64,000 bases of DNA from contig CAMPDV010000503.1 of assembly GCA_946699065.1 (NCBI GenBank), forward strand, positions 79,501 through 143,500, read 5' to 3'. Below the pieces are notes generated by a model. It was not told the DNA's origin and did no database searches. It was given only the letters and a program-made list of their open reading frames with translations. The DNA comes from Loxodes magnus (taxonomy: Eukaryota; Ciliophora; Karyorelictea; Loxodida; Loxodidae). Below, piece after piece: positions 24,726 to 55,664 of the stretch (within the stretch, counting starts at the first letter, position 1; each line of letters starts with the position of its first letter). The position numbers were made by a program, and so were the translations under genes.

Positions 24726-27700
24726 ATGGCTGAATCTAACAGGTGCAGCTCATGCTTAGTTCATTTCGACTCCTCAATACGAATTCCCGTAACCCTTCCT
24801 TGTGGACATCAAGTATGCCAAATTTGTATTCTTGAAGAATACTTAAAAGAGGGATCTAATCAGTGCCCAAAAAGAAACTGTAGAAAAGTTTCATTCAATG
24901 ATCCAAAAAGTTTAATAAGCTAAAAGGGCTAATCAAGTGAAAGTAAATAAGAATATAAATAACTTCATCTTGAAGAAACTAAAATTGAACTATCTTATTA
25001 GCAGAAACCGAAACTAATAAAAGTCAAGATTTTAAGTAAAAATAAAGAAGATATAAATTTAACAGTAGAGGAAGGAGAAACAATTGAATAACTGAAATAA
25101 AAAGTAGAAAGACTAGAAGGAATTGACGCTGATTTTTATGAACTTTATAGAGGATAAGAAAAATTAGATAGTTAGCATAGAATAAATAAAATGGAGAATA
25201 AAGATGAAGTTTAACTAAACTTAAAGTTGAAGAAATGTAATTAATATAAATTTAAGGAAGTGAGAAAATAAGATTTAGAATGTAAAAAATAAAGATAGAA
25301 AGTAATTAATAAAAAATTAGTTTTCGAGATAATGAGAAAATAATATGGTAAATAATATAATAATAGAATGTAAATAATAATAAAAATTAGAAAGTATTAA
25401 ATAATCAAAATAGGAGAAAGTAAGAAAATTTAAAAAAGGCTAAAATGACTTCGAAAAAAGTTAGAAATAAATGTATAGGAGGTAAATTTTAAAAAAGTGT
25501 GTAATATATTTAGCAAAAGTTAGTAATACTTTAAAAACTAGAAAGTAATAAATAAAATTTAAGAATGTAATAAAATAAATAAGATTGTAAGAATACTAAG
25601 AAAGGGAGTAATAATTAAATATAGCATGTATATAATAAAAAAGATTGTAAAATAATTATGTTAAGTTGGTAATTTAACAAATCCAGAAAGTAAATTATTT
25701 AATATATAGCAAGTAAAAAAAACAAATAAAGGAGGTAAAAATTAAAATAAGAGGGTGATTCTATTTAAAATAGAATGTAAGATATTTTAAATATTTATAG
25801 ATGGTAAGAAAATTTAAATATTTATAGAATGTAAGATATTTTAAATATTTATAGTGAGTAAGATATTTTAAATATTTATAGATGGTAAGAAAATTTAAAT
25901 ATTTATAGAATGTAAGATATTTTAAATATTTATAGTGAGTAAGATATTTTAAATATTTATAGTGAGTAAGATATTTTAAAACTTTCTAGCTGGTAAGATA
26001 TTTTAAATATTTATAGAATGTAAGATATTTTAAATATTTATAGAATGTAAGATATTTTAAATATTTATAGAATGTAAGATATTTTAAATATTTATAGAAT
26101 GTAAGATATTTTAAATATTTATAGAATGTAAGATATTTTAAATATTTATAGAATGTAAGATATTTTAAATATTTATAGAATGTAAGATATTTTAAATATT
26201 TATAGAATGTAAGATATTTTAAATATTTATAGAATGTAAGATATTTTAAATATTTATAGAATGTAAGATATTTTAAATATTTATAGAATGTAAGATATTT
26301 TAAATATTTATAGAATGTAAGATATTTTAAATATTTATAGAATGTAAGATATTTTAAATATTTATAGAATGTAAGATATTTTAAATATTTATAGAATGTA
26401 AGATATTTTAAATATTTATAGAATGTAAGATATTTTAAATATTTATAGAATGTAAGATATTTTAAATATTTATAGAATGTAAGATATTTTAAATATTTAT
26501 AGAATGTAAGATATTTTAAATATTTATAGAATGTAAGATATTTTAAATATTTATAGAATGTAAGATATTTTAAATATTTATAGAATGTAAGATATTTTAA
26601 ATATTTATAGAATGTAAGATATTTTAAATATTTATAGAATGTAAGATATTTTAAATATTTATAGAATGTAAGATATTTTAAATATTTATAGGGAGTAAGA
26701 TATTTTAAATATTTATAGAATGTAAGATATTTTAAATATTTATAGAATGTAAGATATTTTAAATATTTATAGAATGTAAGATATTTTAAATATTTATAGA
26801 ATGTAAGATATTTTAAATATTTATAGAATGTAAGATATTTTAAATATTTATAGAATGTAAGATATTTTAAATATTTATAGAATGTAAGATATTTTAAATA
26901 TTTATAGAATGTAAGATATTTTAAATATTTATAGAATGTAAGATATTTTAAATATTTATAGAATGTAAGATATTTTAAATATTTATAGAATGTAAGATAT
27001 TTTAAATATTTATAGAATGTAAGATATTTTAAATATTTATAGAATGTAAGATATTTTAAATATTTATAGAATGTAAGATATTTTAAATATTTATAGAATG
27101 TAAGATATTTTAAATATTTATAGAATGTAAGATATTTTAAATATTTATAGAATGTAAGATATTTTAAATATTTATAGAATGTAAGATATTTTAAATATTT
27201 ATAGGGAGTAAGATATTTTAAATATTTATAGAATGTAAGATATTTTAAATATTTATAGAATGTAAGATATTTTAAATATTTATAGAATGTAAGATATTTT
27301 AAATATTTATAGAATGTAAGATATTTTAAATATTTATAGAATGTAAATATTTTTTATTGACAGTTTGTATTTAAAAACTATTATAGCTAGTATTTTTTAT
27401 TATTATAAGAGGGTATTAAATTACCTCAGCCGGTAAGAATCTACTTCAGGTACCTTTTTAATTTTTGATTGTAAGAAATAATCATAAGATGGTTTTGATT
27501 TTATTGAAGCTAGTATTTGCTTATATGAGCTTGTATTATTTAACCTAAGTTAGTAATAAAATGATATAGAATGTAATATTATTAATATTTATAGGGGGTA
27601 ATGATTGATTTGAAAAGAAAGTAATGTCTAATAAAATTGATTAAAGAATGTTATAGTAACGATTAATATTAGATTATTTATACTAGGTAGTTATTTTTCT

Positions 27701-27841
27701 ATTTTAGGATGTAAATAATTTAATGATAAGTAAGTTTTTCATTATAGAGGGTAATTTTTTATATAAGCGGAGATGGAAAAAACATTTAACAACTTTAAAT
27801 ATTTATCTTAAATTAATGCTTATCTATTAATTAAATTTTGA
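24726..27841 (+). CDS. RING / ubiquitin-like protein with single-codon exon array (gene 1)
   Basis: Exon 1 (24726-25236) encodes a RING finger at residues 7-56 (CSSCLVHF, LPCGHQVCQIC, CPKRNC) and a ubiquitin-like fold at about 95-170 (VKILSKNKEDINLTVEEGET, ADFYELYRGQEKLD, VQLNLKLKK). After base 1 of a codon the gene breaks into about 98 GT..AG introns, mostly 16-24 nt, around 3-nt exons plus a 27-nt and a 21-nt exon. Joined in phase 1 the exons read IFEIMRKQYEQRERVFKKYW, then TYFETREEYELNELMTE, a poly-Gln tract with two WK insertions, FSKAGTFLIFDY, and a final exon (27768-27841) with AEMEKTFNNFKYLSQINAYL before TGA. One spliced codon near the start (KK-TGA-KQ) must be Trp, or exon GAA (25257-25259) is skipped. 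The role is presumably ubiquitin or UBL conjugation. The intron between AAT and GTA near 27650-27690 is uncertain. Confidence 0.75.
25237..25776 (+). other. Heterogeneous micro-intron/single-codon block, gene 1, 5' part
   Basis: About 22 introns of different sequence, each starting GTAA, GTAT or GTGA and ending AG, mostly 16-21 nt. They alternate with exons GAA, AAT, AAA, a 27-nt exon (25321-25347), AAT, AAA, GAGAAA, GAG, TGT, TTA, AAA, AAT, ATT, GGA, CAT, ATT, TTG, AAA, CAA, GAG, AGG and AAT. One intron is about 62 nt. Every exon length is a multiple of three. Joined in phase 1 they contain no TGA after the first codon. Confidence 0.75.
25777..27339 (+). repeat. 58 introns of 24 nt in a perfect 27-nt period
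   Basis: The unit GTAAGATATTTTAAATATTTATAG plus 3 nt repeats with no length change for 1563 nt (58 x 27 - 3). The triplets between units are ATG, AAT, TGA, ATG, AAT, TGA, TGA, CTG, then AAT throughout except GGA at 26692-26694 and 27205-27207. Units 2 and 5 share a variant intron (GTAAGAAAATTT...) and the ATG-AAT-TGA triplet series is duplicated, showing multi-unit duplication at the 5' end. In phase 1 the AAT exons give T|AA = TAA = Gln, so each added unit adds one intron and one Gln. Confidence 0.95.
27340..27767 (+). other. Heterogeneous micro-intron/single-codon block, gene 1, 3' part
   Basis: After the homogeneous array the exons are AAT, TTT, CTA, AGG, CCG, a 21-nt exon, ATG, CTA, CTT, TTA, AAT, GGG, AAA, AAT, GTA, GAT, TAA and AGG, separated by introns of 14-26 nt of unrelated sequence and one longer gap of about 37 nt. 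In phase 1 they give FSKAGTFLIFDYATFKWEKC and then RLK, continuing without a break into the last exon. This part makes the coding reading of the whole array persuasive. Confidence 0.65.
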
Positions 27842-29274
27842 TTTAGATACTTTAGCTATTTTAAAGTTACTAAACATATTAGCATTATATTTTAAGATCT
27901 TTGTTAACTTTGTTGCTTTTTTCACTTTATTGATGAAAAATTGATTGCTATTAAGGAGATGTTGGAATTAGTAATTAAGGTAATATTTTGATAATAGGTA
28001 TAGTTTTTTAGCTGATGTATTAGATTTGTTGATAGTAGTTGTTTGATTTTGAAATAATGTCTAGGTGTTAATTTGATATCCTTTCTATTAATGTTTAAAA
28101 TAGGTTTAGTAATTTTGAAAGATAATATGTAATGATCTAATATAGTCTCTACAAAATGTGTGTTTATGAATTATAAAATAGTTAGTTTAAATAATAGTAA
28201 ATAAGGATGTAGTTAGTTAGTTTGATTTAGTTATGGTTGTGTAATAAAGTGTTAAAGTGTTACTGAGATATTGTTGCTGGTATTTTAAAAATTTGTAATA
28301 GATAAGTATTTAATTTATAATCTATGTAATAATATGATTAAAGCAGATGTAAGAATTTAGCTTATATAATGATTGTTATTATAAACTACTACTTGAATAT
28401 GATTAATTTGAATTACTAATATTATAACACACAGTCTATACTTTATAACCCTATTTTATATTCTAATTAATATATTAACTACTTATTTTTACCTATTTAT
28501 TAATATCCTCTATCTATATCTTCTATTTTATTTAATCTACTAATATTATTAGTAAGATTTCTCTAGTTTAATACTATTAAGATGTAGTGTACTCTTAAAC
28601 TACTTTATTTACATATTTTATTATTAACTTCTAATTTATGTCTATAATCAGAGTTATTTATTTCTATTATCATTTCAAATCTTAAGTACACTCTAAAATT
28701 ATATTATATACTAAATTATTACTAGACATCAATCAAATCAGTTACCAACAAGTGTAATTGATAAGGACAACTAGAAAATGGTATTTTGATTTTAAAAGTA
28801 TAATATAGCATAATATAAAAGTAAACATTATAAACAATATAAATAACTAATAATCTAGCTAACCCTTTATAAATATAATAACAAAACATATCCTTAATTC
28901 AATTCAAAACACTATCATTTCCTTAATATATCCTAACAACATTATCACTCAAAAACTATCTAATACACTCAATTTTATATTACTATTCAATTCATCAAAA
29001 TCTTATTTTTCAAACTCAACTAGTCAGTCATAGATCAAAGCTATTATCAACCTAAACATTATTTATATTATCCAATAAACCTCTTATCAACCAAAAGGCT
29101 AACTATTTTAACTATCAATTACGAAAAAGATATATATATCAAAAATAACAAAAATCAAACCCTAAAATCCCAAGTTTCGGATTTAAACGAAAAATTATAA
29201 CATTTTTATAAATCGTTATGAAGATAAAGTAAGAAAATAAGTAATTAAAAAAGTAAATCAACTAAAAATCGGAA
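27842..29274. other. Intergenic, no gene recognised
   Basis: The first 400 bases are unusually G/T-rich on the plus strand and contain some further GT..AG-like spacing, but no phase could be followed. The rest is AT-rich. If TGA 27839 were read as Trp the frame of gene 1 could continue into this stretch. Confidence 0.4.
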
Positions 29275-29791
29275 ATGCAAAATGTAAACTTCCAACTAAA
29301 GTAAATAGAAGATAGACTAAATAATTAAATTATATTAACAATTAATAATCTAGAAAAATTAAAGCAATGTAAATCCTATGGATATTGAGAAAAATCTAAA
29401 ATAAGTTAAATTACTTAGCAGATAAGAATATTATGATGATGATTCTACAATAAAAAAGAATATCTAATAAGGATATGCTAACAGTTTAAAATTAAGTAAA
29501 TACTATAAGTAAAAAAATTTGAAGAAAACTGAGTTAAAATATTATACACAAGATGATTAAACTTTTTTATGATAAAACTATCAAGGAATGGAATTAATGA
29601 ATCAATAATGGAAATGAGCAATAAAATAATGAGGATAATATTTAAATGAGCTATAGAACGTATAGGATTAGAAGATGAAAAAAGGAATGATCTTCAAGAT
29701 GAAAATTGAACCGAAGAAAAAAGAAGAACAAGAAATCTACGAGCGAATTCGCAAGAAGTAGCAGAACTTTTATAAGAGCGAGTACAAGTGA
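29275..29791 (+). CDS. Small unknown Lys/Gln/Trp-rich protein
   Basis: ATG at 29275 gives MQNVNFQLKQIEDRLNNQII and continues to about 29380. There a neighbouring frame (ATG at 29378, MDIEKNLKQVKLLSRQEYYD) takes over and runs 137 codons to TGA at 29789, so one indel probably splits a single gene. The body includes NSLKLSKYYKQKNLKKTELK, QNYQGMELMNQQWKWAIKQ and a basic tail PKKKEEQEIYERIRKKQQNF. Internal TGA codons fit Trp. Another frame over 29608-29830 also reads as protein (ANSQEVAELLQERVQ), so the assignment is not unique. No family was recognised. Confidence 0.45.
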
Positions 29792-31370
29792 ACTTAAAGA
29801 GGTTAACCTTAGAAGCGTAGTGCCACTATTATTTATCTTTTGTTATTATTTATATTAAAAAAATATTTAGAATTAAAAAATATAGATAAATTTTCGTATA
29901 ATTATAATATATAAAAAGCGATAATTTACTTAGCCTCAAGTTATTTAAAAAATAATATTTAGCAATAAATAATATTTGAATATTATTAAAATAAAATTAA
30001 AATAAAAAATTAATATCAGAAATTATTTTATCAAAAATTATTATAAAAAAGCAAAAAAGATATAGATAAACAGAAAACAAAAATATATCAAGTTTTTAAT
30101 TAAGAGCAAACTAAAAAAACATAAGTCTTAAAGAAATTTCTCTTTATTGTGACTTAGTTTAATAAAGTAAATGATAAATAAAATTAGAAATTTATAAGAT
30201 TTTTTATCTCCTTATAACCTAAATTGGTTTAATTATTAAACATAAAATGTTTCTTGTTTTTTATGATTTGCTAAGATATATTTATGATTTAATGTCTATA
30301 ATTTTAATTTTTCTTATTTTTTTTGAACCAAAATTTTTAATATGCTATTTTTATTTTATTTAGCTATAAATTATATATAATTTATAGATTTATTTGTAAT
30401 CATGATTTTAGTTCTCTTTCTTTGTAATAATTTTAAAGCTAATTATAATTCTACTTACTTAAAAATATTTAAAACTAAAATAATTTTAAGTCTAATGTTT
30501 CACATTATACAGTTTATTTGATTAATTATATAAAATCATATTAAATGCTATACTAATATCTTAATTAGAATAAATAGAATTTATTAAAAATAATTAAATA
30601 AATTTAAATAACAAAATACAGTTATAAGTTAATTAGTTTCAAACACAAAAAAATAAGAATAAAAAATAAAGAAAGTAATAAATTATATTATAATTAATTT
30701 ATTATTTACTAACTAAAAGAACTTAATAAAATAGATAATTATATTTTAACTATTAACTTAGTTACTTTAACATTATTTATTTTAAATTTACTTTATTATA
30801 ATAGTAAAGGTGTTTAAATATAATTATAATTACTATGTAATTAACATTATTTAAATTGTTAACTATATAAAAAAATAAATAACTAAATTTAAAAAGCAAT
30901 TATGTTGTTATAATTTCTAAGGCTTTTTGTAAATTAATAGCAAATTTAATATGAAGTACTTGCTAAATCAAATTATATTACATAGCATTATCAATTTATT
31001 TTTAATATATAATTAAAATAAAAGAAAATTATAATTATAATATATAATTTTAATTTATTTTATAAAATCTTTCAAAATACATTTTAAGAAAGTCAAATAA
31101 AGTTCTATATTTTATTTTTTTCTTATCCTTTAAAATATTTTTTAATTCTACTATATAAAATAATAATATAATATTAATATTTTATTTTAAATTTAACCAT
31201 TTTTGGTATTTAATAAATATTTTTAAATACTTTATTAAGTTATAAGCATTTTATAAAATTGTTATTTCGTAAGATATTCTTGTATTTAACATTTTACTAA
31301 TTATTATATAAGGTATATTTTAGTTTTATTTTAAAAATAATAATTAAATAAATAATAAATAAATTTGATT
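29792..31370. other. AT-rich intergenic stretch, no gene recognised
   Basis: More than 85% A+T by eye, with many homopolymer runs and no conserved motif. Confidence 0.5.
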
Positions 31371-31860
31371 ATAGAGCGCGTAGCACTCTCGTTGGTGCGC
31401 AGCTCTTTAAAAAAAATGTTTCATACTAACAAGAATGTTTGTTACTGATAAAATTATCAGATACTGATAAACCTTGTTCAATACTGGTATAATTATTCAG
31501 TACTGATAAAAATGTTCAATACTGATATAATTTTAGAATACTCGTAATCTTTAATACTTGCTGGAGGTCCAAGGACATGGCAGGATTGTGTCTCATTGCA
31601 TCACCAAAGCAGAGGACGACATGTGTCAATTATGGGTACTTAAATTCCCCACCTCTGATGAAGCTCACAATATTATTTCTTTTTGTTCCAGAATTAAAAA
31701 TAAACGAAGCCAAGCCAAGTCAGTGTCGAAGGTCTAAGAATCTTATGTCTCGAGGTCAAACCAAAGCAGAGGAAGACATAAAGTCGATTATGGGTACTTA
31801 ACTTCCCCAACCTCTGATAAAGATGACCTTGTTGTTCGCCTTCGAACAACTATGGCGTTT
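31371..31860 (-). repeat. GTGCGCAGCT-family end followed by two internal tandem repeats
   Basis: Opens with AGAGCGCGTAGCACTCTCGT and TGGTGCGCAGCT like the copies at 4119 and 14157. Positions about 31440-31540 carry repeats of a TACTGATAAAA/TATTCAGTACTG motif. Positions about 31565-31680 and 31725-31820 are two diverged copies of a GC-richer unit sharing CCAAAGCAGAGGA, TTATGGGTACTTAA and CCCACCTCTGAT. An ATG frame over this unit (31577-31801) lacks TAA/TAG but is probably just the repeat. Confidence 0.55.
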
Positions 31861-32089
31861 TAAAAAATATATATATTAATAAATATTAAATACCTAGTTT
31901 ATTATTAAGATAGAAAAACTAGTAAATAAAAAACTTAGTAAGTTTTCTTAAATTAATCTTTTATTTATTTCATGCTTATTATTTTTATTTATAAGAACTT
32001 AACTTTGAGAAATAACTGAAGTTTAGTTTATGGAATTTGATTTAAATATACATGATGATAATTAAGTAAAAATTATTAAGAAAATAAAA

Positions 32090-32640
32090 TCATACTTCTG
32101 CTAGAAATTTATGCACGAAATTATTTAGAAAATTAAAAAGATAAATATGGCTCTATCACTTAGATTTAAATGTTAATATCTTTGTCTACCCTCTAAAAAG
32201 ATATATATATTAAATAAATCTAATTCCTTAATATTTTATAAGAATCATCAAATATTAATTTTACATTAATCATTAAAATAACTGTTCGCCTTCCAGCTTA
32301 ATATTAAATACCAATCCAAACATTAAAATTAACTTAGATTTAAAGCAATAATTTAATCATTTAAGTTACGTTATATAAAAAATTTGTATTTAAAATAAAT
32401 TATTATTTTGGAACTTTCTAAATATAACTATTTCATTAAAAATAAAATATAAATTTTATAAATATCTTTTTAATTAATTAGCTAGACATTAAATATTTAA
32501 TTTTTTATTTTGATTATAATTGAATTATTGTAGAAAAATTTATGGCTTTTTAAAAAAATTATAATAATAATAATTTATTAAAATGAATTCACCTTTATTT
32601 GTTTTTCACGTATTAAAAAAAATAAAAAAAATGGAATAAT
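32090..32640. repeat. Direct repeat with 2395-2980 (copy B)
   Basis: Same block order as copy A, including ATGGCTCTATCACTTAGATT and CCTTTATTTG...TTTTTCACGTATTA at its right end. A short frame starting at 32632 (MEQQVRLSKNQIRKTRKQAK, 38 codons) begins at the right edge and is cut short by TGA; it may be a truncated element gene. Confidence 0.65.
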
Positions 32641-33424
32641 AGGTTCGTCTTTCAAAAAACTAAATTAGGAAAACAAGAAAGCAAGCGAAGAAAGAGGAAC
32701 TAAAAAATTAAAGACAATAATAAGAATCTAGCTCTTCATCTGAAGGAAAATAATGATAGGTCCAGCTGTTTCAGTTAATCCACAAATTTAGAATAACGAC
32801 TTTCTTCAAGATTAAACATATTAAAAAAAATATTTCGTCCCAGAAATGTTTATCAAACAAAAGTTTTCAAAAAAATTCCTTAAAAAAAATTAAAAGGTTT
32901 TTAAAATTAATTTCCAAATTTTATTTTAAAAACCATTTTTGATTGCTATTTTCAAAATTATTTTAGAAACACTTTTCAAATAAATTTTAAAAACTTTAAA
33001 AAAAAAACTTCTTTCAAAATTTTTATTCCAATTTTAAAATTATTTATTCTGAAATAAAAAAATTTATTCCTATTTAGAATTTTTATCCCGAAATAATTAA
33101 ATTTATTCCGTCCCAGAAATCTTTGGCAGTATAAAACGCTGAGCAAAAGACAATTTTTTCATTTTCATGAAATTCATGCTCTAAACCTTAAAGATAAATA
33201 AAACTTATTATTAGAAAAATTAATTTTCCAATAGGAAACAAAATATTTAACATAAAATTTAAAATTTTATAGTTATAATAAATAAATAATTAATAATAAA
33301 TAATAAATAATAAATAATAATAAATATTAAATATCAATCATAAAAAATAAATTATAAAAAATAAAATTATAAAAAACAAAATTTAAAATAAAATAAATAC
33401 TTAATTAAATTTTTTAATAAAAAA

Positions 33425-33710
33425 AAAACTTTGATTAAAGTGCGAGTACCTCAATGGTGCGCAGCACTATAAGAAGTCAATTTTAAAGTCTTTAAATCCT
33501 ACTATTTCCTTTGCATTTTCTCTTCTAATTGGTCCAAGGTTGCGGTTCTAATTCTCCAAAGCACAGAACCCCAACAGGCGATTACAGGTAAATTTCCAAC
33601 CCATGATGAAGAGATAGTTTGGTCTAACACTTAGAAGGTTTGCTTCTAAGTCAGTTCATCTTTGGGGAATTCTTCTCGTATCCTTTAGAGGCAAGGTCCA
33701 CCCTATTTAA
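33425..33710 (-). repeat. Degenerate GTGCGCAGCT-family element
   Basis: Begins AGTGCGAGTACCTCAATGGT and GCGCAGCACT, then carries GC-richer DNA with an internal inverted segment around TTCTAAGTCAG / CTTAGAAGGTTTGC (about 33630-33650). Beyond the first 35 bases it is not obviously homologous to the 11186/14157 copies. No reading frame. Confidence 0.45.
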
Positions 33711-34079
33711 ATTAAATTATTTAATAATCTAAATTATAAACTAACTTTAACCTTATAAATAATATTTTAACTACTCCACAAAAAAAAAGAAAATTTTTTC
33801 TCAACTTGAAATTTTTACAAAATCTAAAAATAAAGCTATAAAATTTTATAGAATAAAATTAAACTTAAACTTATTATACATCTTCTTTTACTAAAATTAT
33901 ATTTTAAATATTTATAAACATTACCACTTTAAATCAACATACCTCACTAATTTCTATAACCTATATTACTCAACCTTTTTCTTAAACCAAGAATATTTAA
34001 AATATACAAATTTTAAATAAATAAATAAAAAACAAACACTTCATATAACTAAAAACATTATTAACATTAAACATTCATT

Positions 34080-36410
34080 TAAATGCATTACCAATATAAT
34101 AGCACCACCATATTAAGTGGTACTTGTACCTTTACTACCAAAAACGAGTTCTTTACTATAAAGCTAACTTATTTGTTCTTAGTTTGTATGCAAGCTGCAC
34201 TAATCGCGCTGTTATCTGAACAATATAGGTTTTCTATTAGAATAGTGTTGAGAGAGTCTAAATAGATCCCAGCAGATATTTAATTTACTTTATTGCTTTA
34301 AATTGTGGTATTACCAAAGATAATATTTGAGGCTTTATCACTAAAAACGCAACAAATGTACAAGTATTTCCAGAGTAAATTTAAAGCTCGTCCTCTATCA
34401 AATTGATTGAATCCGTTTTCAGAAACCACCTCCCCTATTGTTAAGGATTTAGCAGCGATATAAAAAGATTACGGGAGTAACTTTTCTTTGACTAAATGAA
34501 ATATCCATTACATATACAATACTTCCTAAATCCTGTGAAGAGACTATAATATTATTCTAAGATTCGCTGTTCATAATGTATAAGAAAGTGAAGCCCTGTA
34601 TTCCTTCTACATTTATCAGATAAACTCTTTACTGAAACTATTTTTTTATTACCTTTAAAGGTTACTTTATCAAAGATTAGAACACCTTTATAGCCAGATT
34701 GAGTAAATACTAACTATAGTTAATATAGCTAATTATCGTATTTTTAAGGATCACCTTTGAAATTTAATTAGCTATTTCTTTAGATTTGGTCGATTTACTA
34801 TCTGAAGTCGCTTAATTGTAATCCGTTATAATATGTTAGTCAACTTCAAGAAACTGCTATAAGAGTCATTGAAGATGCAGCTATTTATTACCAGGTAAGT
34901 CAACTAGATATTGTTATCCATGATAGATAAGAAGATTAGCCTTCCTTTAATTAACCAGTTCAAGTTGAAAAAAGAATTGACCATTTAAATATTTTTATTA
35001 GTTTGAGTTTAATTTAGAGTCAGTAAAGAGAGAATGCCAGCTTCTGATGCTTAATATTTAACTAGGGTTGGCAATGATATAGAAGGTATCTATAAGTACA
35101 TTGTCATTAGTTGCAAATATTATAGCTTAATATTCATCTGTATTACTAGAAAAAATAGAATTGAAAATACTGAGAGAAATGCAAAAGTCTAGTTAAATAA
35201 TTGACCTTAGCCAATGCTTGAATGTCAGAGAATATCGTAATTTATATGATAACGCTTTTAAAATATTGGAGATATAGTAACGAAGCATTATTCTGATAAC
35301 CATTTATATAATTTTGGGAGAATTAGCTTTCCTTTATATATAGTAGTATGCTAGGAGTTGATTATCAAAAGGAGAACACATTTTGGGAATTTTATTACTA
35401 TTAAGGCTAATTATTATCAAAGTATCAAAGTCTTGAGAGGTAAAGACATACAATCATATAACTCCTAAGAAAATCTTGTTATCGCCATAGAGAGAAGTTC
35501 AGTTACAAGTCTATTTCCAACACTAGATTCTAGATATCTCTGATTTAAAAAGAAGAAAGCTCGTTTTCTGAGAGATGGTATAGGAAATATTAATTACCAT
35601 CTGGCTAGTAGTTTAATGAGACTCCAAAATACTTTGCAAAATTTTAAGTTTCGAAGTAAGAATTACCCTTGGATTTTACCTGAAGTAGAGATATTTACAA
35701 GTAGTTTTCAATGCTGATAACTGTGGAGCATAAGTTGGAAATAAAGTTAGCAATCTGAATGAGTAACTTTTTATCTAAGTTAAATTTAGATCAGGAATCA
35801 TCTTTCCACTTACCTCCTTATTGATTATTTGACTATTATGAAAATCCGAACAGAAGAATGTAATTAATGTTAAGGATTTAATTCGTTTACTACATGAAGC
35901 AAGTGTTTTCCTCGAAGGTCGAATTCTTTATATTAACATTTGGAATAATAGAGTCTGAACTAGTTTATAAGGAAATAATGTATCTTGAGCTCTGATCTTC
36001 GTATCCACCGAAATTATTAGTAAATGAACAATTCTCGACATTTACAGTCAGATCTAAAATTTGTTTTGTAAGAACGTACTAATAAATATAATCTCCCCGT
36101 TCCATGCCAAGTTACTACTAGTGATACAATCCTTGAAAAATATTCTAGTTACATAATATAAATAAATAAAAGCTTGATAACTACAACATTAATCATTTTA
36201 GAAGCAATTTACGATCTTATTTTTATCAAAAGTTACTTAGGAGATAGTAATATCATTAGCAAAATAAGTGAAAAGAAAGCCATTTTAAGATAGTAGAAGG
36301 CTCTAATTCTTTTAGGTATTAAGGTTGTAATCTTATGATTTGCGTTATAAATCATGAAAAAAGTTAAGATCAGTTACTGTTCCTTAGTATCAATAAAAGG
36401 TTTATATTTT
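34080..36410 (-). CDS. Right-handed beta-helix (surface/secreted type) protein
   Basis: Minus-strand reading gives strand-and-turn repeats rich in Asn and Ser, typical of parallel beta-helix proteins: VNVENCSFTNNFGGYEDQSS, PNVNIKNSTFEENTCFM (about 35850-36030), then NYQPDGNQYFLYHLSENE (about 35570) and, near the 3' end, NIIFGNTTIQSN, GIYLDSLNTILIENLYCSDN (34150-34300). The frame changes several times and TGA codons occur at Trp-compatible places (DDS-W-SKF). The 5' end is uncertain: one frame has ATG at about 36282 followed by a hydrophobic MAFFSLILLMILL segment, while the better frame continues further upstream. It is divergent from the second RING-UBL gene, about 250-370 bp away. Confidence 0.5.
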
Positions 36411-36657
36411 TTTACTTCTTAATATAGTTTGCAGTTAAAAGCACATTAAATTTTTTTTATTTGTTTTAAATTAAATTTCATATTTTATTAAATTTAATTT
36501 TAAAATTATATCTATTTAATATAATTCTATAAAAATAATTAAATTATATTATTTTCTTTATATACATGTTTTCTTTTATTTTATTACTATTATTATTATT
36601 TAACGTATATATACGTGGATTTTGTTTAAAAGGAAAAGTTTTTAAAAAAAATTAATA

Positions 36658-38736
36658 ATGTAATCTGAAATGTCCTAGACTGCTAAATGTCTTTAGTGTC
36701 AAGGAGATTTTAATGGGGCGATGTAAATCCCAATGTTATTACCTTGCAATCACAACATATGTTATACTTGCGTCACTGATTAGTATTAGAAAAGTTAGGC
36801 GACCAAATGTGTATTCTAAAATTGCTAAAAAGTACATAAGGTTCATCCTATAAAAATTCAGGAAGACACATAGTTACTCAAGCGTCTTGAACAAAAGAAC
36901 CTCATGGGAAATATAACGATGTTATAGAATCAATCGTCAAGAGTTCGTCAAGCTTAAACTTAATTGTCCAAGGTCTACTCTCTTTTTATCTAGTAGTTGA
37001 TAATACACGTGAGCACTTATTTGTTTAAGGAGAATATCAGCTTACAAAGACAGTTGGTTTAGCAGGATAAGTAAATCTAAGAATAGTTGAAGTTTTTAAA
37101 AATCTAGAAATAGATGATGGACAAAAAAGGAAGCAGCTAGTAGTAGATCATTTGTTAAGAATCTCCATAGAATGAGCAATAAATTTCCAAATTGATAGCT
37201 GATGTTTAAAAGACCATCTAGAAGAGCAATCAGGTATCGGTTAAAGTTTTTGAGGAACTAGACTCTTGCAAGTTTAATCTAACTTAAGTGACATAGGAAA
37301 ATAGTTACTTAAAGAATGAGATGTAAAAGTTGAGTAGTTAAATCTAAAATTTGTAATAGCAGTTATCATCTCTGCAAGTTAAGTAAATCGAATAGTAATA
37401 ATAAAAGCCTTAAGTGATGAAATCTTAATAGATTCAATAACCTCAAAATATCCCTAAACAGGCTAAGCTATAGGACATCTAGATAACTATCGTATCGCCA
37501 AACAATAAAACGGTATAGTTAATAGTAAAATAAGAGACTACTATCAGTTAGATAAAGCAATAGATCTATTCATAAACTGAGTTATTACCTGACGGTTTGA
37601 GTATCGTTAAGAATAAGGTTATATTGGATGACAGTTAAGCAGTAGCGAGTTAAAAGTTGTTGAATGGTGAGAGGTTGCAAATGGAATTTAGTCAGTTCAA
37701 ATTTAATTTTCTCCAAAAAACTAATATAGACGGTAAATAGATTTTATAACTTTAATAAAGATCAAGGTGAGTTTAAGATCTACTATATTTAAAAGGATGT
37801 AAGTCTTAAATAATTTCAATAATAGGGGGTAAGGATTAATTATAATATTTAGATGGTAAGCTAGCATTTAATGATTTAGCATGTAAGTTTCATTTTGAAT
37901 GTTTCGCAATAAGTTTGTAAGTATCGGTTTTAATAAATTACGTTTAAAGGGAGTAAGCTTCATTTTAATAATTATCACTTAATTTAGGTAAGTTAAAGTT
38001 TAAGGTGAAAATGAAGCATGTAAGTTAAAGTTTAAGGTGAAAATGAAGAAAGTAAGTTAAAGTTTAAAGTGAAAATGAAGCATGTAAGTTAAAGTTTAAG
38101 GTGAAAATGAAGATGGTAAGTTAAAGTTTAAGGTGAAAATGAAGTTGGTAAGTAAAAGTTTAAGGTGAAAATGAAGAAAGTAAGTTAAAGTTTAAGGTGA
38201 AAATGAAGGGAGTAAGTTAAAGTTTAAGGTGAAAATGAAGAAAGTAAGTTAAAGTTTAAGGTGAAAATGAAGATTGTAAGTTAAAGTTTAAGGTGAAAAT
38301 GAAGATGGTAAGTTAAAGTTTAAGGTGAAAATGAAGCATGTAAGTTAAAGTTTAAGGTGAAAATGAAGAATGTAAGTTAAAGTTTAAGGTGAAAATGAAA
38401 ATGAAGGGAGTAAGTTAAAGTTTAAGGTGAAAATGAAGAATGTAAGTTAAAGTTTAAGGTGAAAATGAAGAATGTAAGTTAAAGTTTAAGGTGAAAATGA
38501 AGAATGTAAGTTAAAGTTTAAGGTTATATTTAGAAAGTAATGTTCTATTTTAGTATGTAAGTATTTTTTTTATAGGTTATTTTCAGATCGTAACGGGTTT
38601 AATATTGATTTAGGTGGTAAGTGTAATTTTATTGGTAATATAGAATGTAAGATATTTAAAAACGAAGGGGGTAAGGAGGCTTTAAATAAATATTAGGATG
38701 TAAGAAATAATACTATGGTATGTAGTGATGAAATGA
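36658..38736 (+). CDS. RING / coiled-coil / ubiquitin-like protein with single-codon exon array (gene 2)
   Basis: Exon 1 (36658-37732) encodes a RING finger (CLQCQGDF, LPCNHNICYTC, CVFQNCQKV; residues 11-60), a Gln-rich coiled coil to about residue 265, and a ubiquitin-like domain (IQITIVSPNNKTVQLIVKQE, LPDGLSIVKNKVILDD, LLNGERLQMEF) to about residue 350. It stops in phase 1 at GTAAAT. A 6-nt exon (37761-37766) and 29 single-codon exons follow, ending with 38726-38736. Joined, they read DQGWDAFWTQTYVERKNYAQ and then WKQQQIYREWGLMK before TGA, with no internal TGA. Without splicing the first frame stops at 37768. Expected activity: RING-dependent transfer of ubiquitin or of its own UBL. The RING and UBL match gene 1, and the tails share the pattern [YF]WT plus an acidic-basic stretch. 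Confidence 0.78.
37767..37987 (+). other. Heterogeneous micro-introns of gene 2, 5' part
   Basis: Introns of 24-36 nt starting GTGAG or GTAAG and ending TAG or AAG, with exons GAT, GGG, ATG, CAT, TTT and GGA. The last intron here ends ...TTTAG directly against the next GTAAG at 37988, leaving an exon of zero length. Confidence 0.75.
37988..38505 (+). repeat. 16 near-identical introns separating mostly different codons
   Basis: The intron GTAAGTTAAAGTTTAAGGTG plus AAAATGAAG (29 nt) recurs 16 times. The triplets between are CAT, AAA, CAT, ATG, TTG, AAA, GGA, AAA, ATT, ATG, CAT, AAT, GGA, AAT, AAT, AAT. One copy is 6 nt longer (AAAATG duplicated before GGA) and two have single substitutions. 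The 32-nt period (518 nt in total) leaves the coding phase unchanged. Confidence 0.95.
38506..38725 (+). other. Heterogeneous micro-introns of gene 2, 3' part
   Basis: A hybrid intron (repeat start, new end ...TTATATTTAG) leads to exons AAA, TAT, ATC, GTG, AAT, GGG and GAT, separated by introns of 17-30 nt, and a final exon at 38726. A second AG|GT junction without exon sequence lies at 38575/38576. Confidence 0.7.
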
Positions 38737-47852: not shown

Positions 47853-50833
47853 TCACTATTTAATCAGCCACTCCAAGCTCATCTGGCTAGAATTTTTAAT
47901 TTTGGGCACACATATACCCGATAGATCCAAAGACGTAAATTAGTAATCCATCCAATTCAATATCGTTATACTATTAGTTGCCGCTATTTATAAAGAAACA
48001 TTAGTACTGGACATTCTCACTATCTCCAATAGATTTTATTACACACTTGAATTATTATTTGCAGAATTTGAATTATAAATCTCTCTCACAAACTATAGTA
48101 TCTCCAGATTGTCCACTATCAAAAATTTATTTATATTGTGAACCTCTATTGCTTATGCCTTAGCGGATGAAACTAAATCTATAATATTCTTTGCCACATA
48201 ATAATCTCTTACCGATGCATGAATAAACTCAAACCTCTTTTTATTATTCTATTCCTTTGTCTATATCAGACACCCTATATGGTTTTAATCGTCCGTAAAC
48301 TATTCTATCCACTTTTGATTCACTTCATCAAAGCTTGATATCTCCACCGAACCCTGTAACATCTTCCATGCCGCATTCTTTTAGATACTTTCAAACAACT
48401 TTATTTACTAGTTGAGCACTTTACTTTTTAAACCCTGATTTTACAATTTTTCTTAGGTTCTTTTGTTTCACTAAACTATGAAAATCTCATATATTCTAGA
48501 CTTTTAAACTACTTTACCACTTTTTAAATAATCTAATATCTCTTCCTCACTCAAACAAATATATAGCAGAAAAGGATTACTGATAATTTCTTTCAAACCA
48601 GGTATTCTCTATATTAATGCCATCATCTCTTATATTTAAGATGCTTCCACTTGACTTGAAACTTGACTTGCACTTTATTATTACTGGTTCTTCTTAACTA
48701 GGACTTTTTCTCTATATTTTTCTATCTAAACGATATCGAATGGCTTTATATACAGTTCCTATAACTCTTATAATTAGACTCTTTCGCTACTGTATGGTGA
48801 AAAATAATGTTGGTAATTTTTTCTTTTAATGCATAATTTACTCTACATGTTATTATATATTTTGTCTGAGGATACTTTTCTTTTAATTTATTATTACTGA
48901 TAATAGCCTTACATTCTCCCAACTCATCATACACGTCAAATAAGAACAGAATCTTTCTAAATTTAAATGTCTCATTTCTTTCTATTTAATAATTATCTAA
49001 AGCAGATTCTATTAATTTGTCTTTTAATGCTTTTATAGTTGGGAGATACACATATATGGATAATTATTCATGTTTCTAGTCTAGATATTTTAAGGCTAAA
49101 ATATTCAGGAACAAGGACTTTCCAGAACCGGAATCTCCCAGAAGTAATAATCCTGTCTTAGTATCGTTTTCTAAAAATTTCAAGGTCAAGATCATCCTCA
49201 GCTTATGAATTAGGATTAGGAGCGCAAAATAAGCTTACGTAATATTCTTGGTTCTCCGAAACCTCTTCTTTTAAAGTCCTTATCATATTTTAATATATAC
49301 TACTGCTAATGCCCTTAAGTGCCAACCAATTCTCTTCTATTATTTAAGTAAATAAAACAAAATGCTCTGGATCCATTAATAATTCTAGAATTATCTAACG
49401 TTCTTTTACATTCTTGCTTAAGTTCTCTTTTTTAACTTAAATATTCTTTCCTTATAAGTGCAAGCTATTTGGTTCTTTTCTAAAGTAAATTCTAAAAATG
49501 TCTTCACTGCATAGTACCTTATCTACCAATCCTTGTCGTCACATAGTTTTTCTAAAAGCTTACATGAGTCTTCTATCAATTCTTTATTTGTTTAAAAGTT
49601 TATTATCATGTGTTTTAGAAGATAGCATGCTCTAAATCTTAAGTCTATTTTTTCTTTCAAAACAATATCTCAAAATTGGTAAAAATTTTATTTTGAGTAT
49701 TGTCTCACTAAATCACATGCAAGAGCATCTAAGACTCGTAATCTAATAATCTTTTTATAGTTGAGCTTCTAATTTACCCAACCTTTTCCTCATAAGAAAA
49801 ACTCCTTTATAATAGAGATCGCATCTGACCCTATAACTCCAACTCCAAACGTCAAGGCAATTATTCATTAAGCAACTTTTAAAATCTTACATAGAATTCC
49901 AAAATATTCGGTTTCTTTGCTATCTGGAATATTCTCCAGAATCATCAAACTAAATCTTAAGTAAAAATCTAGTTCTGGGCCTCCAATCCTATTTTTATTT
50001 TTATTTTTATTTTTATTTACTAACTTTAAGCTATCATTTATTTTTAAAATGAGCTCTTCTTTTGTTTTTTCATTTATAAAGGAGTTTTACTCGTTCTTCT
50101 AAAGCAACACAGCCAATAACTCAGGAAGATTTCGTACAAGCTACTCCTTCAAGAGCTAAGACCATCCTTCAGCATACTTATGGGAAATAATTTCAATTAA
50201 TTGATTTATAAGAACTAATGGAACATTGATATTGGCAAACTTATTCTTTTGAATTGCTTGAATTCCTTGTAGAACTTTATCCATCTTTTATTCATTCAAA
50301 CCTTCTTTTAAGAGCTACAATCCTTCTTGATAAATATTTTGTTCCTTATTACCAAAAATTTGTTCATTTTCTTGATATTTCTAACTTTTATCATTGCTTA
50401 ACCCTTATTTTTATACTGGCTAATTACTCTACTTATCTTTATTTTTTTAATCTTTAAATTTTTTATCCTGAGAATCACAACAATTTCCTCCTTTTAGCTT
50501 CATTCTTTTCTAAATATTTAGCTTATCTCTCTTATTAGAAATAAGCTTAATTTTTTAATCTATAAGATTCATTTAATTATTCTAGCACTTTGTAATTGCA
50601 AGCCTTTTTGAATCAGCAAAATAAGAAATGTTTTGAAGGAAGTTATAATATTCAAATTGTTGAGATTACTATAAAGAGATCTCTATCTAATTATTTGGAA
50701 CTTGTTCATCTTATGAATCTAGGAAAGTTTAACTCTCTTTATGATTCTTGTATTCATATTCATTCATTTAATTACTTGAAGTTTAGCGTTCATCCCTTTC
50801 TAGTGTCTTTTAATGGTTATTAATCGTCTTCAT
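47853..50833 (-). CDS. HEAT-repeat / NACHT-domain NTPase
   Basis: About 990 codons from ATG at 50833. Residues ~180-500 form HEAT-like helical repeats (ELLAVLLQKNEQ, DFYLRFSLMILENIPDS, KLLEKLCDDKDWQIRYYAVK). A NACHT NTPase follows with P-loop LLLLGDSGSGKSLFLN near residue 565, Walker B LFLFDVYDELGE near 630, sensor YIITCR and a winged-helix-like part LYIKPFDIVQIEKY. FEFIHASVRDYYVAKNI and a SITILN...LDLSG segment follow. NACHT ATPases act as oligomerising signalling switches. Three frame breaks sit in single-base runs (T at 49428-49433, A at 49173-49177, T at 48817-48822), each cured by one base, so assembly errors are likely. In-frame TGA at 49867, 49792, 49672 and 48470 (first base, minus strand) fit Trp; the last lies at the usually conserved Trp after the NACHT helical part. 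Confidence 0.75.
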
Positions 50834-52040: not shown

Positions 52041-53531
52041 AGCTCTAATAACTATAAAGAAGCTAGCTTATATAATAAGAATAAAATAAAGCTAAACATT
52101 TATTAATCAAAAATGTTATAATTTATCTTAATTAATTATAAGCCTTTAGCTTTACTTAGTTACATGTCTTTAGGATTTTAAGACTAAGAATTATCTTTAT
52201 TTATAAGGTATTTTAGTAGATAAAATTAAGGCTAATTTTTAATAATGCTAGATGTTGCTGTTAGAAAATAAAATTGAAGCTAGTTAAAATTATTAAAGAT
52301 AAGCTAGCATGACTAATATGATTAAAACTAGATGATAATCTTAAATCATAAAATCTAATAAAATGAGGAATTCATTAAATAGAACAAAATAAATTATACC
52401 TAGAAAATTCAAGCAAAGTTATAAATATTTAAGTTAAAGCTGAAATTCCAGAATGCAATTCTGAAGAAGATTCCTTCAAGGGCTGAGAAGTTATATGAAG
52501 AAACTAATTAATAATTAAATTTTAGGAAAGATAAATAGCATAGAATTAAAAGATTACATGAGAGGGACAACAATAACGAAAATAATAATTTAGAGATATT
52601 AAGTTGCTACAAAATTAAAAGAATGCATAAATCTATTTAAAAAAGTTATTCTGTGTAATTTTTCTGCTAGATATCAGTGCTAAAAGAAGAAAGAAATTTA
52701 AAACATGCTTAATATTAAGCATGACTATGATCAGAAAACTAGATAAAAAGGCTGAAAAATCTCAAAATCAAATGATACAAGTTTAAAATGAGTAGAATTA
52801 GCATTCATTATATTGCTGTAGAAATTCGCAGGAAATATATTAGCGCAGGAATTAGCTCTATTTGCGTCTCCCAAAGAAGTTATGATAATTTCGGATGTGG
52901 TTCTTTGGTTTATTTAAGCTTTTAACGTTTTTTCAAACCTAAATTTTAATTTTACTTTTGCCTTTATTTATTCAAAAAAGCTGATTACGCATTTCTTTAT
53001 TTCTTAGTGTTTCCCATTCTAATTTGTGCATTTTCATAGCTCTTCTATTTCTAAAAATTATAAGTTTGCTTAAAAAACTCCAACAGCTGAGAAATATAAT
53101 ATCTTAGAATAGCTCTTAAGATATTAATATTTGTAGGTCAATGAAGACTAACTTATATAAATAGGTTATTATCTTCTATTATCTTCCAGTACCTATAGGT
53201 ATTTATTTACTTACTTAAAATTTTGAAAATTCAGTTTTCTCTGATTTATTATAAACTTTAATCTCTTTATTAAAACTTTCCTAAATTGATGGATTCTTAA
53301 ATCTTACTACCTTAGTAATTAAGATTCTTATAGGTTTATGCTTCTAATTTTTCTAAATTTATAAATATTTACTCTTTTATTTGAAGAATCGTGCTATATA
53401 GATTGTCTTTTGTCTTGTTTACACTTTTTATATTGTTCCATCTTTCATGAATTTGATTCTTCATTTTAGCTCTAATAGGATATTTCTATAGGAATGTTTA
53501 GTTTTATATGTAAATATTCAGGCTACAATTT
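52041..53531 (+). pseudogene. ARM-repeat-like coding relic in the 1.5-kb direct repeat (copy B)
   Basis: Same sequence as 1-1490. The first ~600 bases look identical, after which there are a few per cent of differences (for example one extra A near 52643, TTTGCGTCTCCC for TTTGCTTCTCCC near 52862, a different GAAGAATCG block near 53385). Similarity ends abruptly near AGGCTACAATTTTT. The coding relic shows the same frame changes as copy A, so they predate the duplication or were copied with it. Confidence 0.4.
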
Positions 53532-54122
53532 TTTGGAAAATAAAGTGTTAAAATATCTATTTTCTGCTTACTTGAAAAGCTTAAACCACCCCGTTAAATT
53601 TGTAATAAATGAAGATTTCACTGTAATAAAGGTTACTTATGAACTGTTTTCCTAAGCTCTATTTTAATAAATAGACACTTACATTTGTTTAATTTTTAAA
53701 TTAAATTAATTAAAAAAGGAAAAGCTGAACATTAACTTATTAAAGCAAATAATTATCTTCTTAATAAAACTTACTAAACAATTCCATAGTTGTAGAGATT
53801 AAATCTTATTATAGGAGAGCTATAGAATCAGTTAAGTCTTCTATTTTTTTGATACTATATTCACAAGTTGTGACAGTTAGTATATAAGATTGAAAAAAGA
53901 GATTTAATTCTTAATAGAATAATATAAACATTAAAAGTAACAAGTCAAGATTAAGATAACAACACTTTAATATCCTTAATATATACATTTATAACCTAAT
54001 TCAAATGCAACTTAAAGGTGTGATATTCAACCTCCACTTAAAATTTTATATCCTATCTGCTGAGACATCGACCCTTAAAAAATGTTCTGGACTTAATTTA
54101 AAGAAATAATTTTTAAACAGCA

Positions 54123-55664
54123 ATGAAGATTCCAGAAAAGATGCTTAAAAATATCGAAGTTAAATGAAGAGATAATCTGAAAGTTTTAAATTAAATTCAA
54201 GGATTTTCTAGAAGTGAAACCTCAATAAGACGGAACATCAAGAACTAAAAAATTAAAAATAACTAAGAGGCAGTAGAGGTGGAAAAAGGAATAGTTTAAG
54301 ATCATAATATAGATAGGAATAATGTCTTAAGCTTACAAGTTAAATTTGATTTATCTAATAATTTTTAACTTATTGAATTATTTAGAATAAGATCATTAGC
54401 TTGCTTGATTATCTTTCAAACATTATTTAAATTTAATCTTCTAGTTATAAATATTAGATCAAAATTATAGTATCATCTTATTTAAAAATAAGAGGGTTAT
54501 TAAAATAATAATAATGAGACTAAAGTTTAGATAAAGAGAGTTAGTACTATTTAAAGAATAAGGAAAATAATAATTAGTAGATTATTAAACTAAAAGTATT
54601 TCTATTAATTAATATATTAATATATCTTTAATATACATCTTAATTAAATTAAACAAAACTTACTTCTTCACTTTAATTCAACAATAGAACATTTAACTGG
54701 GACCAATCAAACTTCCAATGCCTTAGAAATTTTAATTCAAACTTTATCTGCGTCTAAACTAACTGAGAAACTATTCCAAAATTAGAATTGGAGACTTAGC
54801 TTATTAAATAAGAATGATTATGATAATTTACAAATAAGAAAGTTTAAGTCATAATCTAAAAGAAATTAACAGATATTACAAAATTAAAATCTTAAGATTT
54901 TAAGGATTTACTGAAGCTATTAGAAACTATTTTTATTTGAAAGAGAAAAACATTTAATTGGGCAGAATAAGTATAAAGCACTTTAAAATATTCGCTGAAA
55001 GTAAAATCAAAAAATATAAAATAAAAAAGAAGAAAGAAGAAAGTATTATAATCAGATTAAATTTCATTTAGAGACTCAGAAAAATCTTCAAAAAAAGAAA
55101 GGAATGCCTCATTAAATAACAAAATTGACTAAAAATAGATATAGAAAAATAATTTAAGACCATAAAAATGAGCTACAGCTTTCAATTCTATAAATGGAAA
55201 GAGGAAAATGGAATTTAAAGAAAGATATTTAATGTAATAAAAAATAGGAAATAAGACATAGATAAAGATAACTAAAATGAAATCAATCTAGAAACCCAAT
55301 TTTAATTTTCTCTAGTCAAATTTTGTTAGCATAAACTGATAGAAAGTGACTGAGGGATTTTTAGCAATGATTTCACAAAATTATTTAAGATATCTTAAGT
55401 TTAAATTAGGATTATAAAACTTACCTTTGAATATTTGCAAAAAGCTTAAGAAATGTAAAAAAGATTAAAGGTAGAATATAAATATTTAACTAACTATATT
55501 TAAGTTATTGTTCTTTACAATCTTTAAAATATAAACTTTATAAATAATAGATAAAAGAAGCATTAACTAATCTATAACTACTAAATACATTTAATAATTG
55601 GAAATGTCTCTAGCTAAAATAATAAAGTATTATAATTAAATAAAGGAAATTAATAATAAAATGA
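54123..55664 (+). CDS. Unknown protein of 513 codons with seven UGA codons read as Trp
   Basis: ATG at 54123 opens MKIPEKMLKNIEVK-W-RDNL and one frame continues to TGA at 55662. TGA occurs in frame at 54165, 54912, 54996, 55278, 55347, 55368 and 55428, beside three TGG. The contexts are convincing for Trp, for example RK-W-LRDFQQ-W-FHKII and KTYL-W-IFAKSL. Between 54168 and 54911 (248 codons) there is none. The protein is Lys/Gln/Asn-rich with a helical C-terminal half; EHLTGTNQTSNALEILIQTL lies mid-protein. No domain was recognised. If TGA were always a stop, only fragments would remain. Confidence 0.6.

Follow-up and report, generated by a model that had tools for sequence, protein, structure and literature searches.

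How can a protein be encoded by DNA that, behind an ordinary first exon, continues as a series of tiny putative introns set three bases apart? This question is raised by two genes in the window, the whole 64-kb stretch of Loxodes magnus DNA that was analysed. A sequence-only reading had proposed that in both genes a RING-UBL exon 1 is followed by short introns and phase-1 single-codon exons. It counted about 98 introns for a tail of roughly 125 residues in gene 1 and about 31 for roughly 34 residues in gene 2. We built curated models of both genes (Table 1). Gene 1 (24726-27841) has 96 introns and 97 exons, 92 of which are 3 nt long, and a predicted product of 304 residues, 134 of them behind exon 1. 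The model of gene 2 (36658-38736) contains 32 introns and 33 exons (30 of 3 nt), and its product has 379 residues, 35 of them behind exon 1. The earlier counts agree well with these models, because three modelled introns, two in gene 1 (56 and 58 nt) and one in gene 2 (64 nt), are merged stretches that may hold two introns each. A tRNA scan with bacterial settings and an Rfam scan of the window found nothing.

Table 1. Positions of the parts of the two modelled genes in the window.
Feature	Position	Strand	Description
Gene 1 exon 1	24726..25236	+	RING finger ~24744-24872; ubiquitin-like domain ~25017-25226
Gene 1 array, 5' part	25237..25776	+	23 introns of 16-21 nt; exons: 20 of 3 nt, plus 27, 6 and 21 nt; starts with a codon split as T and GA (Trp if translated)
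Gene 1 array, middle	25777..27342	+	24-nt intron + 3-nt exon, repeated 58 times in tandem
Gene 1 array, 3' part	27343..27767	+	15 modelled introns; those of 56 and 58 nt may be two each
Gene 1 last exon	27768..27841	+	TGA stop 27839-27841
Gene 2 exon 1	36658..37690	+	RING-like ~36688-36810; Q-rich/coiled region; UBL ~37483-37686
Gene 2 array, 5' part	37691..37987	+	predicted to encode N-D-Q-G-W-D-A-F-W; first modelled intron 37691-37729 has donor GTCAG (GTAAG at the same place in L173, L159 and L165)
Gene 2 array, middle	37988..38505	+	32-nt repeat in 16 units, each of a triplet and a 29-nt intron (35 nt in one unit); near-identical introns between diverse triplets; AG followed by GTAAG without intervening triplet directly before the first unit
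Gene 2 array, 3' part	38506..38725	+	single-codon exons; conserved C-terminus Y-R-E-W-G-L
Gene 2 last exon	38726..38736	+	TGA at end

The domains of exon 1 were assigned with Pfam profiles. In gene 1, the RING was matched by zf-C3HC4 with 25.3 bits (cut-off 21; residues 7-49) and by zf-RING_UBOX with 25.6 bits (cut-off 25.2), and the ubiquitin domain PF00240 (residues 98-167) scored 23.4 bits, just under the cut-off of 25.4. In gene 2, zf-RING_UBOX gave 23.3 bits (cut-off 25.2) and a second RING profile 16.9 bits, both below cut-off. The Pfam search returned no PF00240 match for gene 2 at E<=0.01, and its UBL was placed by phmmer homology to the paralog L159. PF00240 exceeded the cut-off of 25.4 bits in L159 (28.5 bits) and in three further family members, L176 (42.6), L164 (41.6) and L166 (28.1).

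The spacing of the putative splice sites was determined by counting AG-N(k)-GTAA in both genes, in those parts of the arrays that are not repetitive. A spacing of k=3 was found 36 times (16+7+6+7), and the runner-up among k values of 0-15 was k=9, found 4 times. In dinucleotide shuffles of each non-repetitive part, mean counts were 0.18-0.78, and the highest count was 5. The strict three-base grammar claimed previously was thus upheld, and it holds on a larger scale than claimed. A chain search was run on 22 sequences; its scoring did not favour 3 nt and charged slightly for every exon base. Exactly 3 nt separated the introns in 1034 of 1326 gaps; gaps of 1, 2, 4 and 5 nt numbered 20 in all and those of 6, 9 and 12 nt 43. 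When the 3-nt gaps were excluded, 141 gaps were multiples of three and 151 were not. Some of the gaps longer than 3 nt conceal introns with other donors. The automatic chain of L176 has 170 introns, all different, and 139 three-nucleotide exons, up to 39 of them consecutive. Zero-length exons were considered as a class and rejected: the triplets NAG and AGN are numerous enough to account for the excess of k=0 and k=1, so that only a few sites need a zero-length exon or an intron of 56-64 nt.

RNA-seq-based introns of Loxodes magnus have a mean length of 19.3 nt and a mode of 17 nt, with a negligible share below 16 nt (PMC11441545). The array introns were compared with these by length; they are GT..AG introns, mostly of 16-25 nt, and their removal from RNA is predicted. 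All 184 introns of eight aligned gene-1 paralogs measure 16-26 nt. The 617 distinct array introns have a mean of 24.5 and a median of 23 nt, longer than the published mean, and 384 of the 1349 introns in the chains measure more than 25 nt, compared with 7% in the published set; 12 are of 14-15 nt. The G content of the triplets is 19-24% by position versus 7% in the intron interior. The intron density of the two genes had been regarded as far beyond the ordinary. The counts stand, but the number for gene 1 is inflated by its long repeat. The middle of this gene repeats a 27-nt unit 58 times, so the gene owes much of its regularity to one tandem repeat. In 50 of the 58 copies the triplet is AAT, which in phase 1 reads TAA (Gln) and would give polyQ.

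Code table 6, with TGA as stop, was dropped for table 27, as TGA lies in frame at the gene-1 junction: T and GA flank the first putative intron directly behind exon 1 in 8/8 aligned gene-1 paralogs. In karyorelicts, TGA is read as Trp when it is far enough from the poly-A tail (PMC11441545). The tails had also been described as stop-free. Gene 1, however, has in-frame TGA at codons 171 and 279, and a stop-free tail is a weak argument because TAA and TAG encode Gln and TGA may be Trp. The TGA counts per frame by offset (28/801, 40/721 and 13/721) look favourable but were set aside, because TGA can be Trp.

Whether the triplets behave as translated exons was assessed by comparing paralogs. In the eight aligned gene-1 paralogs (statistics omit L178, which is only partly aligned), all 45 distinct gap events fall inside introns and none in exon columns, and 41 of the 45 have a length that is not a multiple of three. 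Between these paralogs, the GT differs in 2.7% and the AG in 1.6% of comparisons versus 24% for the intron interior. The C-terminus YREWGL, assembled across introns, is found in gene 2 and five relatives, with synonymous codons for R, G and L. This comparison covers six of the ten gene-2-like arrays; L159, L167, L168 and L172, whose sites are damaged, were omitted. Among the 90 codon comparisons there were 52 identical, 25 synonymous and 13 non-synonymous ones; 25/38 differing codons were thus synonymous, against 7.5 expected (5000 draws, maximum 16; the pairs share ancestry). The introns of the same region have an identity of 0.58 (0.56 without the close pair W2-L173), compared with 0.55 after shuffling. 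In their sequence behaviour, the triplets appear to be translated exons. By eye, the C-terminus of L159 reads R-V-W-G-L. For the tail of gene 1, pN/pS was 0.61, similar to exon 1 (0.58), and one shifted frame gave an equal value of 0.62; a column permutation was not significant (109/1000 as low; 322/1000 for split codons only). Dynamic programming with forbidden codons was too permissive and did not discriminate.

We consider it very probable that both are protein-coding Loxodes magnus genes whose post-UBL part consists of serial phase-1 single-codon exons joined by splicing. The ordinary spliceosome, which already handles introns of ~16-25 nt, would cut out the tiny introns and ligate the triplets into a message that closes at a TGA acting as stop. 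The predicted joined triplets of gene 1 encode, for example, WKQIFEIMRKQYEQRESQNDFEKR, and those of gene 2 YREWGLMK followed by TGA. Removal would have to be stepwise, since an adjacent donor and acceptor 3 nt apart can hardly be bound simultaneously. Nearly all exons are multiples of three and share one phase, so the skipping of any of them would preserve the frame. The arrays may expand and be rearranged when intron-plus-codon units are tandemly duplicated or unequally exchanged, so that codons are gained or lost whole and in frame. Most likely, the products are RING E3 ligases, and in at least one case a kinase, that carry a UBL, with the fast-changing tail as a predicted recogniser.

Two alternatives dispense with the splicing of the triplets. 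The arrays could be coding tandem repeats that are read through, as the 27-nt unit of gene 1 would allow; frames of 789 and 660 residues in table 6 do cross the array, although the former is not in the frame of exon 1, and in 7/8 paralogs the 23-intron stretch, introns included, has a length divisible by three, which splicing does not predict. We regard read-through as hardly credible, because the repeat units of L159 and gene 2 are 31 and 32 nt, not multiples of three, nearly all gap events would shift the frame, the introns of L176 are all different, and C-terminal introns are close to shuffled identity while their triplets are conserved. Very improbable, too, is a non-coding array, whether one long intron or a 3' untranslated region behind the TGA that spans the exon 1 junction in gene 1. 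This TGA is present in every aligned paralog and is the stop of the code, yet it would be Trp far enough from the poly-A tail (PMC11441545). A non-coding array would moreover leave unexplained the 3-nt exons, the lack of exonic gap events and the synonymous conservation up to the final TGA. The evidence speaks against elimination of the array DNA in the somatic nucleus: at 705.7 Mb the assembly fits the published macronuclear one in size, and canonical IESs were not found in Loxodes magnus (PMC11441545).

If splicing is accepted, the question is why the arrays exist, and here the codons proved far more variable than their own introns. A block of 12 contiguous units in gene 2 has 2 changes in 348 intron nucleotides versus 21 in 36 triplet nucleotides; in the L159 block there are 2 in 448 versus 28 in 48. 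The excess is ~25- to 130-fold in four contiguous blocks of hand-chosen arrays. These blocks replaced earlier triplet/intron ratios, which were biased by selecting pairs for intron identity. A neutral ratchet with a functionless repeated middle is a serious possibility, although we would not call it probable: selection would hardly see a single intron-plus-codon unit, and arrays could therefore expand like satellites, in keeping with the polyQ-encoding middle of gene 1 and with the many near-identical copies in the family, some with broken splice sites (L172, L177). The conserved flanking triplets argue against it, and neutrality alone cannot account for the codon excess. Alternatively, identical introns may have invaded existing codon junctions by reverse splicing, reverse transcription or recombination. 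This would explain the same intron between different codons in gene 2 and L159, and the Loxodes magnus genome is rich in reverse transcriptase domains (PMC11441545). It is nevertheless improbable: gene 2 and its close paralog L173 share the block intron and not the codons, which suggests that the intron was already settled when the codons changed. A more speculative proposal than the ratchet, and a rather doubtful one, is that triplet exons are movable codon cassettes, making recombination and exon skipping a codon-resolution diversity generator for RING/kinase-UBL tails. With homogenised introns, recombination could insert, delete or rearrange individual codons without leaving the frame, and any triplet might likewise be omitted by alternative splicing without a frameshift. 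This resembles immune-receptor diversification in spirit, but would be splicing-based.

The two genes of the window represent only a small part of a family found throughout the genome. In the 705.7-Mb host assembly, the three-site grammar gave 39,808 matches versus 696 for the reversed pattern; the version with 4-nt spacing gave 624 versus 224. Size, genetic code and intron length mark this as probably the macronuclear assembly of Loxodes magnus. Among L3 proteins, the closest named full-length match was from Blepharisma (69% identity), with a fungus at 68% and two longer records placed higher by E-value, so that L3 fits a karyorelict without singling one out. An origin from Tetrahymena was rejected, as the Tetrahymena chain 4v8p was outscored by many eukaryotic L3 proteins. 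Twenty arrays were then fetched by splice grammar alone, hand-picked from the first 100 places of each of two genome listings and thus not a random sample. Seventeen lie behind a RING/UBL-type exon, one behind a kinase-UBL exon, one behind a weak RING match and one behind nothing recognised. Protein-database searches with the joined tail, among other queries, returned no relative.

Several known systems share features with these genes. Schistosome MEGs have serial short symmetrical exons with lengths in multiples of three, ~6-36 nt, and ordinary introns, and encode secreted proteins; the exon symmetry is largely shared by the Loxodes arrays, and exon 1 begins with a RING. Tetrahymena LRR genes, a ciliate family of tandem exon-intron units with an extreme bias to phase 2, have 90-bp exons, whereas the Loxodes exons are 3 nt long and it is the intron that repeats rather than the codon. 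Introner-like elements are many near-identical introns dispersed by insertion at unrelated sites; the near-identical introns of the Loxodes arrays lie in tandem within genes, with fixed 3-nt spacing and phase. Aphid bicycle genes have ~17 exons on average, with internal exons almost all in phase 2, and megacycle has >100 microexons for ~2000 residues (PMC9168663), so its mean exon is far longer than a codon. Like the Loxodes genes, they form a large, fast-evolving family with many tiny exons, but in Loxodes the exons that follow the RING/kinase-UBL exon are single codons in phase 1, and the two genes have 97 and 33 exons in all. Heterotrichs and karyorelicts have introns of 15-25 nt (PMC11441545), a size range like that of the array introns. 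Serial single-codon exons are absent from the intron section of that paper, and the term "microexon" from its main text. In a literature survey, no report of serial single-codon exons was found among the matches listed.

Exons of 3 nt between introns of 16-30 nt are about the limit of exon and intron size. Because adjacent splice sites can hardly be co-occupied, such genes would test how the spliceosome orders dozens to perhaps 170 removals per transcript. Routine annotation is likely to miss them, and short-read aligners require longer anchors than 3-nt exons give. In the published gene set, introns were taken from read mapping and predictions overlapping tandem repeats were identified (PMC11441545). 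Near-frozen introns with variable codons invert the usual rule, and intron origin and protein variation thereby become testable in one system.

Matches in a viral collection (at least 120 stretches) were rejected as candidates; the four that were inspected, from among the five longest runs, are simple tandem repeats. In L177, an acceptor has lost one base, a loss hidden by the aligner.

The sequence-only reading held that, in each of two genes, a RING-ubiquitin-like (UBL) exon is followed by a chain of 3-nt exons parted by tiny introns, and both the curated models and the spacing counts uphold this structure. The model of gene 1 comprises 96 introns and 92 three-nt exons, and that of gene 2 comprises 32 introns and 30 three-nt exons; the RING and UBL domains of gene 2 fall below the Pfam cut-offs and were assigned by homology. 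In the non-repetitive array parts of both genes, AG-NNN-GTAA occurs 36 times and every other spacing from 0 to 15 at most 4 times; the maximum in shuffled sequence was 5 per array part. The joined length is a multiple of three in both models, and each is terminated by TGA. The earlier argument from stop-free tails carries little weight in the table 27 code. According to the available text of PMC11441545, Loxodes magnus uses this code, with TAA and TAG as Gln and TGA as Trp or stop by context. TAA and TAG are likewise read as Gln in the window. The code, in-frame TGA and intron lengths agree with Loxodes magnus as the probable source; the L3 protein, 69% identical to Blepharisma and 68% to a fungus, is consistent with it without being diagnostic. 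Codon 171 of gene 1 is a TGA split by the first intron (T|GA), as in all eight aligned paralogs; if the tail is translated, this codon must be Trp, the first of the joined tail.

Features of the window (coordinates in nt of the window)
Feature	Position	Strand	Description
Gene 1	24726-27841	+	long RING finger + ubiquitin-like domain exon, then GT..AG intron chain
Gene 1 codon 171	25236 + 25257-25258	+	TGA split by first intron
Gene 2	36658-38736	+	long RING finger + ubiquitin-like domain exon, then GT..AG intron chain
NACHT-like frame	48623-49195	-	open frame, NACHT-like NTPase match, E 2.5e-5, slightly below curated cut-off
Near-identical frames	292-2359 and 52332-60432		open frames (MAPKKQQTSINEY.. 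and MIILNHKIQQNEEF..), near both window ends
GC-richer segments	~31370-31405 and ~33440-33470		short, common GGTGCGCAGC core, surrounding DNA very AT-rich

We regard synonymous codon conservation at the C-terminus of the gene-2 family as the strongest evidence that the triplets are likely to act as exons. Six members carry a terminal YREWGL or a close variant, followed by 1-3 residues and TGA. The codons of this motif vary (Arg CGT/CGC/AGA, Gly GGA/GGT, Leu TTG/CTG/CTT), and among the 38 codon pairs that differ, 25 are synonymous, against 7.5 expected. The introns between these codons show an identity near that of shuffled sequence. Since introns split the YREWGL codons, the synonymy is present solely after splicing.

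The 5' stretch of the tail, with 23 introns, was compared in eight gene-1 paralogs (gene 1 itself as W1, with L169, L175, L162, L177, L174, L160 and L171). Each of the 45 distinct gap events is intronic: 24 fall in gene 1 intron columns and 21 in inserted columns inside introns. Exons make up 114 of the 540 nt, which gives P ~2e-5 under even gap placement, the events being not fully independent. In L177, a one-base loss at an acceptor was masked by the aligner. Within the introns, the ends are conserved but the interiors vary, and the joined tail W-x-x-I-F-x-x-M-R-K-Q-Y-E-x-R-E-S-Q-N-D-F is similar in most of the eight. The pN/pS of these tails was not significant by permutation, and a forbidden-codon test failed, giving no discrimination. 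Before splicing, the stretch measures 3n nt in 7/8 paralogs, though most single gap events are not multiples of three; this may reflect chance plus shared ancestry. The whole gene 1 array does not follow this rule, its 96 introns totalling 2201 nt.

An automatic chain search that gave no bonus for 3-nt spacing found exactly 3 nt in 1034 of 1326 inter-intron gaps. Gaps of 1, 2, 4 and 5 nt numbered 20 together and those of 6, 9 and 12 nt 43; when the 3-nt gaps are set aside, 141 of the remainder were multiples of three and 151 were not. Where gaps of other size were inspected by eye, they concealed introns with donors outside the search rules. Among the 617 distinct introns, donors are strong and GTAAG-like, and the ends before the AG are G-poor. 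The automatic chain of L176 has 170 introns, no two alike, and 139 three-nt exons (up to 39 consecutive), so the pattern is more than a side effect of a recent repeat.

Contiguous blocks of four arrays were compared internally. Changes affect 2/348 intron bases versus 21/36 triplet bases in gene 2, 2/448 versus 28/48 in L159, 4/319 versus 11/33 in L173, and 7/1392 versus 22/174 in gene 1. L159 switches between triplets, AAT and CGA for example, with no intermediate forms. Such a contrast is hard to attribute to neutral point mutation, and we prefer unequal exchange that shuffles units, combined with selection on residues. The alternative, spread of a single intron type into existing codon junctions, is disfavoured by the comparison of gene 2 with L173, a close paralog that has the same intron but other codons. 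Removal of the arrays as DNA is also unlikely, since canonical IESs were not found in Loxodes magnus, whose macronuclear assembly is 706 Mbp (both from the available text of PMC11441545).

The 705,730,643-base assembly, in which the window is G000:C503:79501-143500, was searched for GTAAG-N8..36-AG-NNN-GTAAG-N8..36-AG-NNN-GTAAG. This three-site pattern matched 20,137 times on one strand and 19,671 times on the other, compared with 339 and 357 matches of its reversed version; with 4 bases in place of 3, the numbers were 252 and 372 against 119 and 105. Twenty arrays were fetched by splice grammar only, without regard to the preceding exon, and contain a mean of 8 three-site matches each; gene number is not derivable from the match count, because this sample is non-random and the assembly holds near-identical copies. 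Seventeen of the 20 adjoin an exon similar to the window RING/UBL exons, one of them (L163) only via the coiled and UBL part. L167 is preceded by a weak RING match only, and L170 by no recognised exon. In L176 (G000:C89:612000-620000), a protein kinase C-lobe (PF07714, E 1.4e-17) and a ubiquitin domain precede the array. The occurrence of a tail after the UBL in RING and kinase settings alike suggests a shared module, perhaps with a recognition role. With gene 1 exon 1 as the query, 150 of 2624 candidates were scored; these 150 listed matches, which include gene 1, show 75-94% identity. Contig C156 bears seven gene-1-like exons on one strand, and C77 three near-identical array copies ~20 kb apart, which points to growth also by large segmental duplication.

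We know of no gene built of one-codon exons, and none was found in a literature search judged at listing level. The nearest known systems are bicycle genes and the schistosome MEGs. We file the arrays as an extreme variant of microexon genes; the codon-cassette behaviour is possibly worth a separate category. As described in the available part of PMC9168663, bicycle genes have ~17 exons in phase 2, and one of them, megacycle, has >100 microexons for ~2000 residues. In the Loxodes paper (PMC11441545), a search of the main text gave no occurrence of 'microexon', 'ubiquitin' or 'RING'. That paper, in its available text, gives RNA-seq introns a mean of 19.3 and a mode of 17 nt, those <16 nt being negligible; array introns are longer, with >25 nt in 384/1349 chain introns versus 7% in the published set.

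The spliceosomes of this organism process introns of 16-25 nt. With donor and acceptor only 3 nt apart, adjoining introns could hardly be processed together, so that their removal would presumably be stepwise or alternate. Because nearly all exons are multiples of three in phase 1, a missed exon would cost whole residues and keep the frame. Tolerance of such skipping errors probably permits the arrays to exist.

The near-identical open frames recurring toward the window ends indicate that a dispersed repeat flanks the region. The two segments with the GGTGCGCAGC core perhaps belong to an interspersed repeat.
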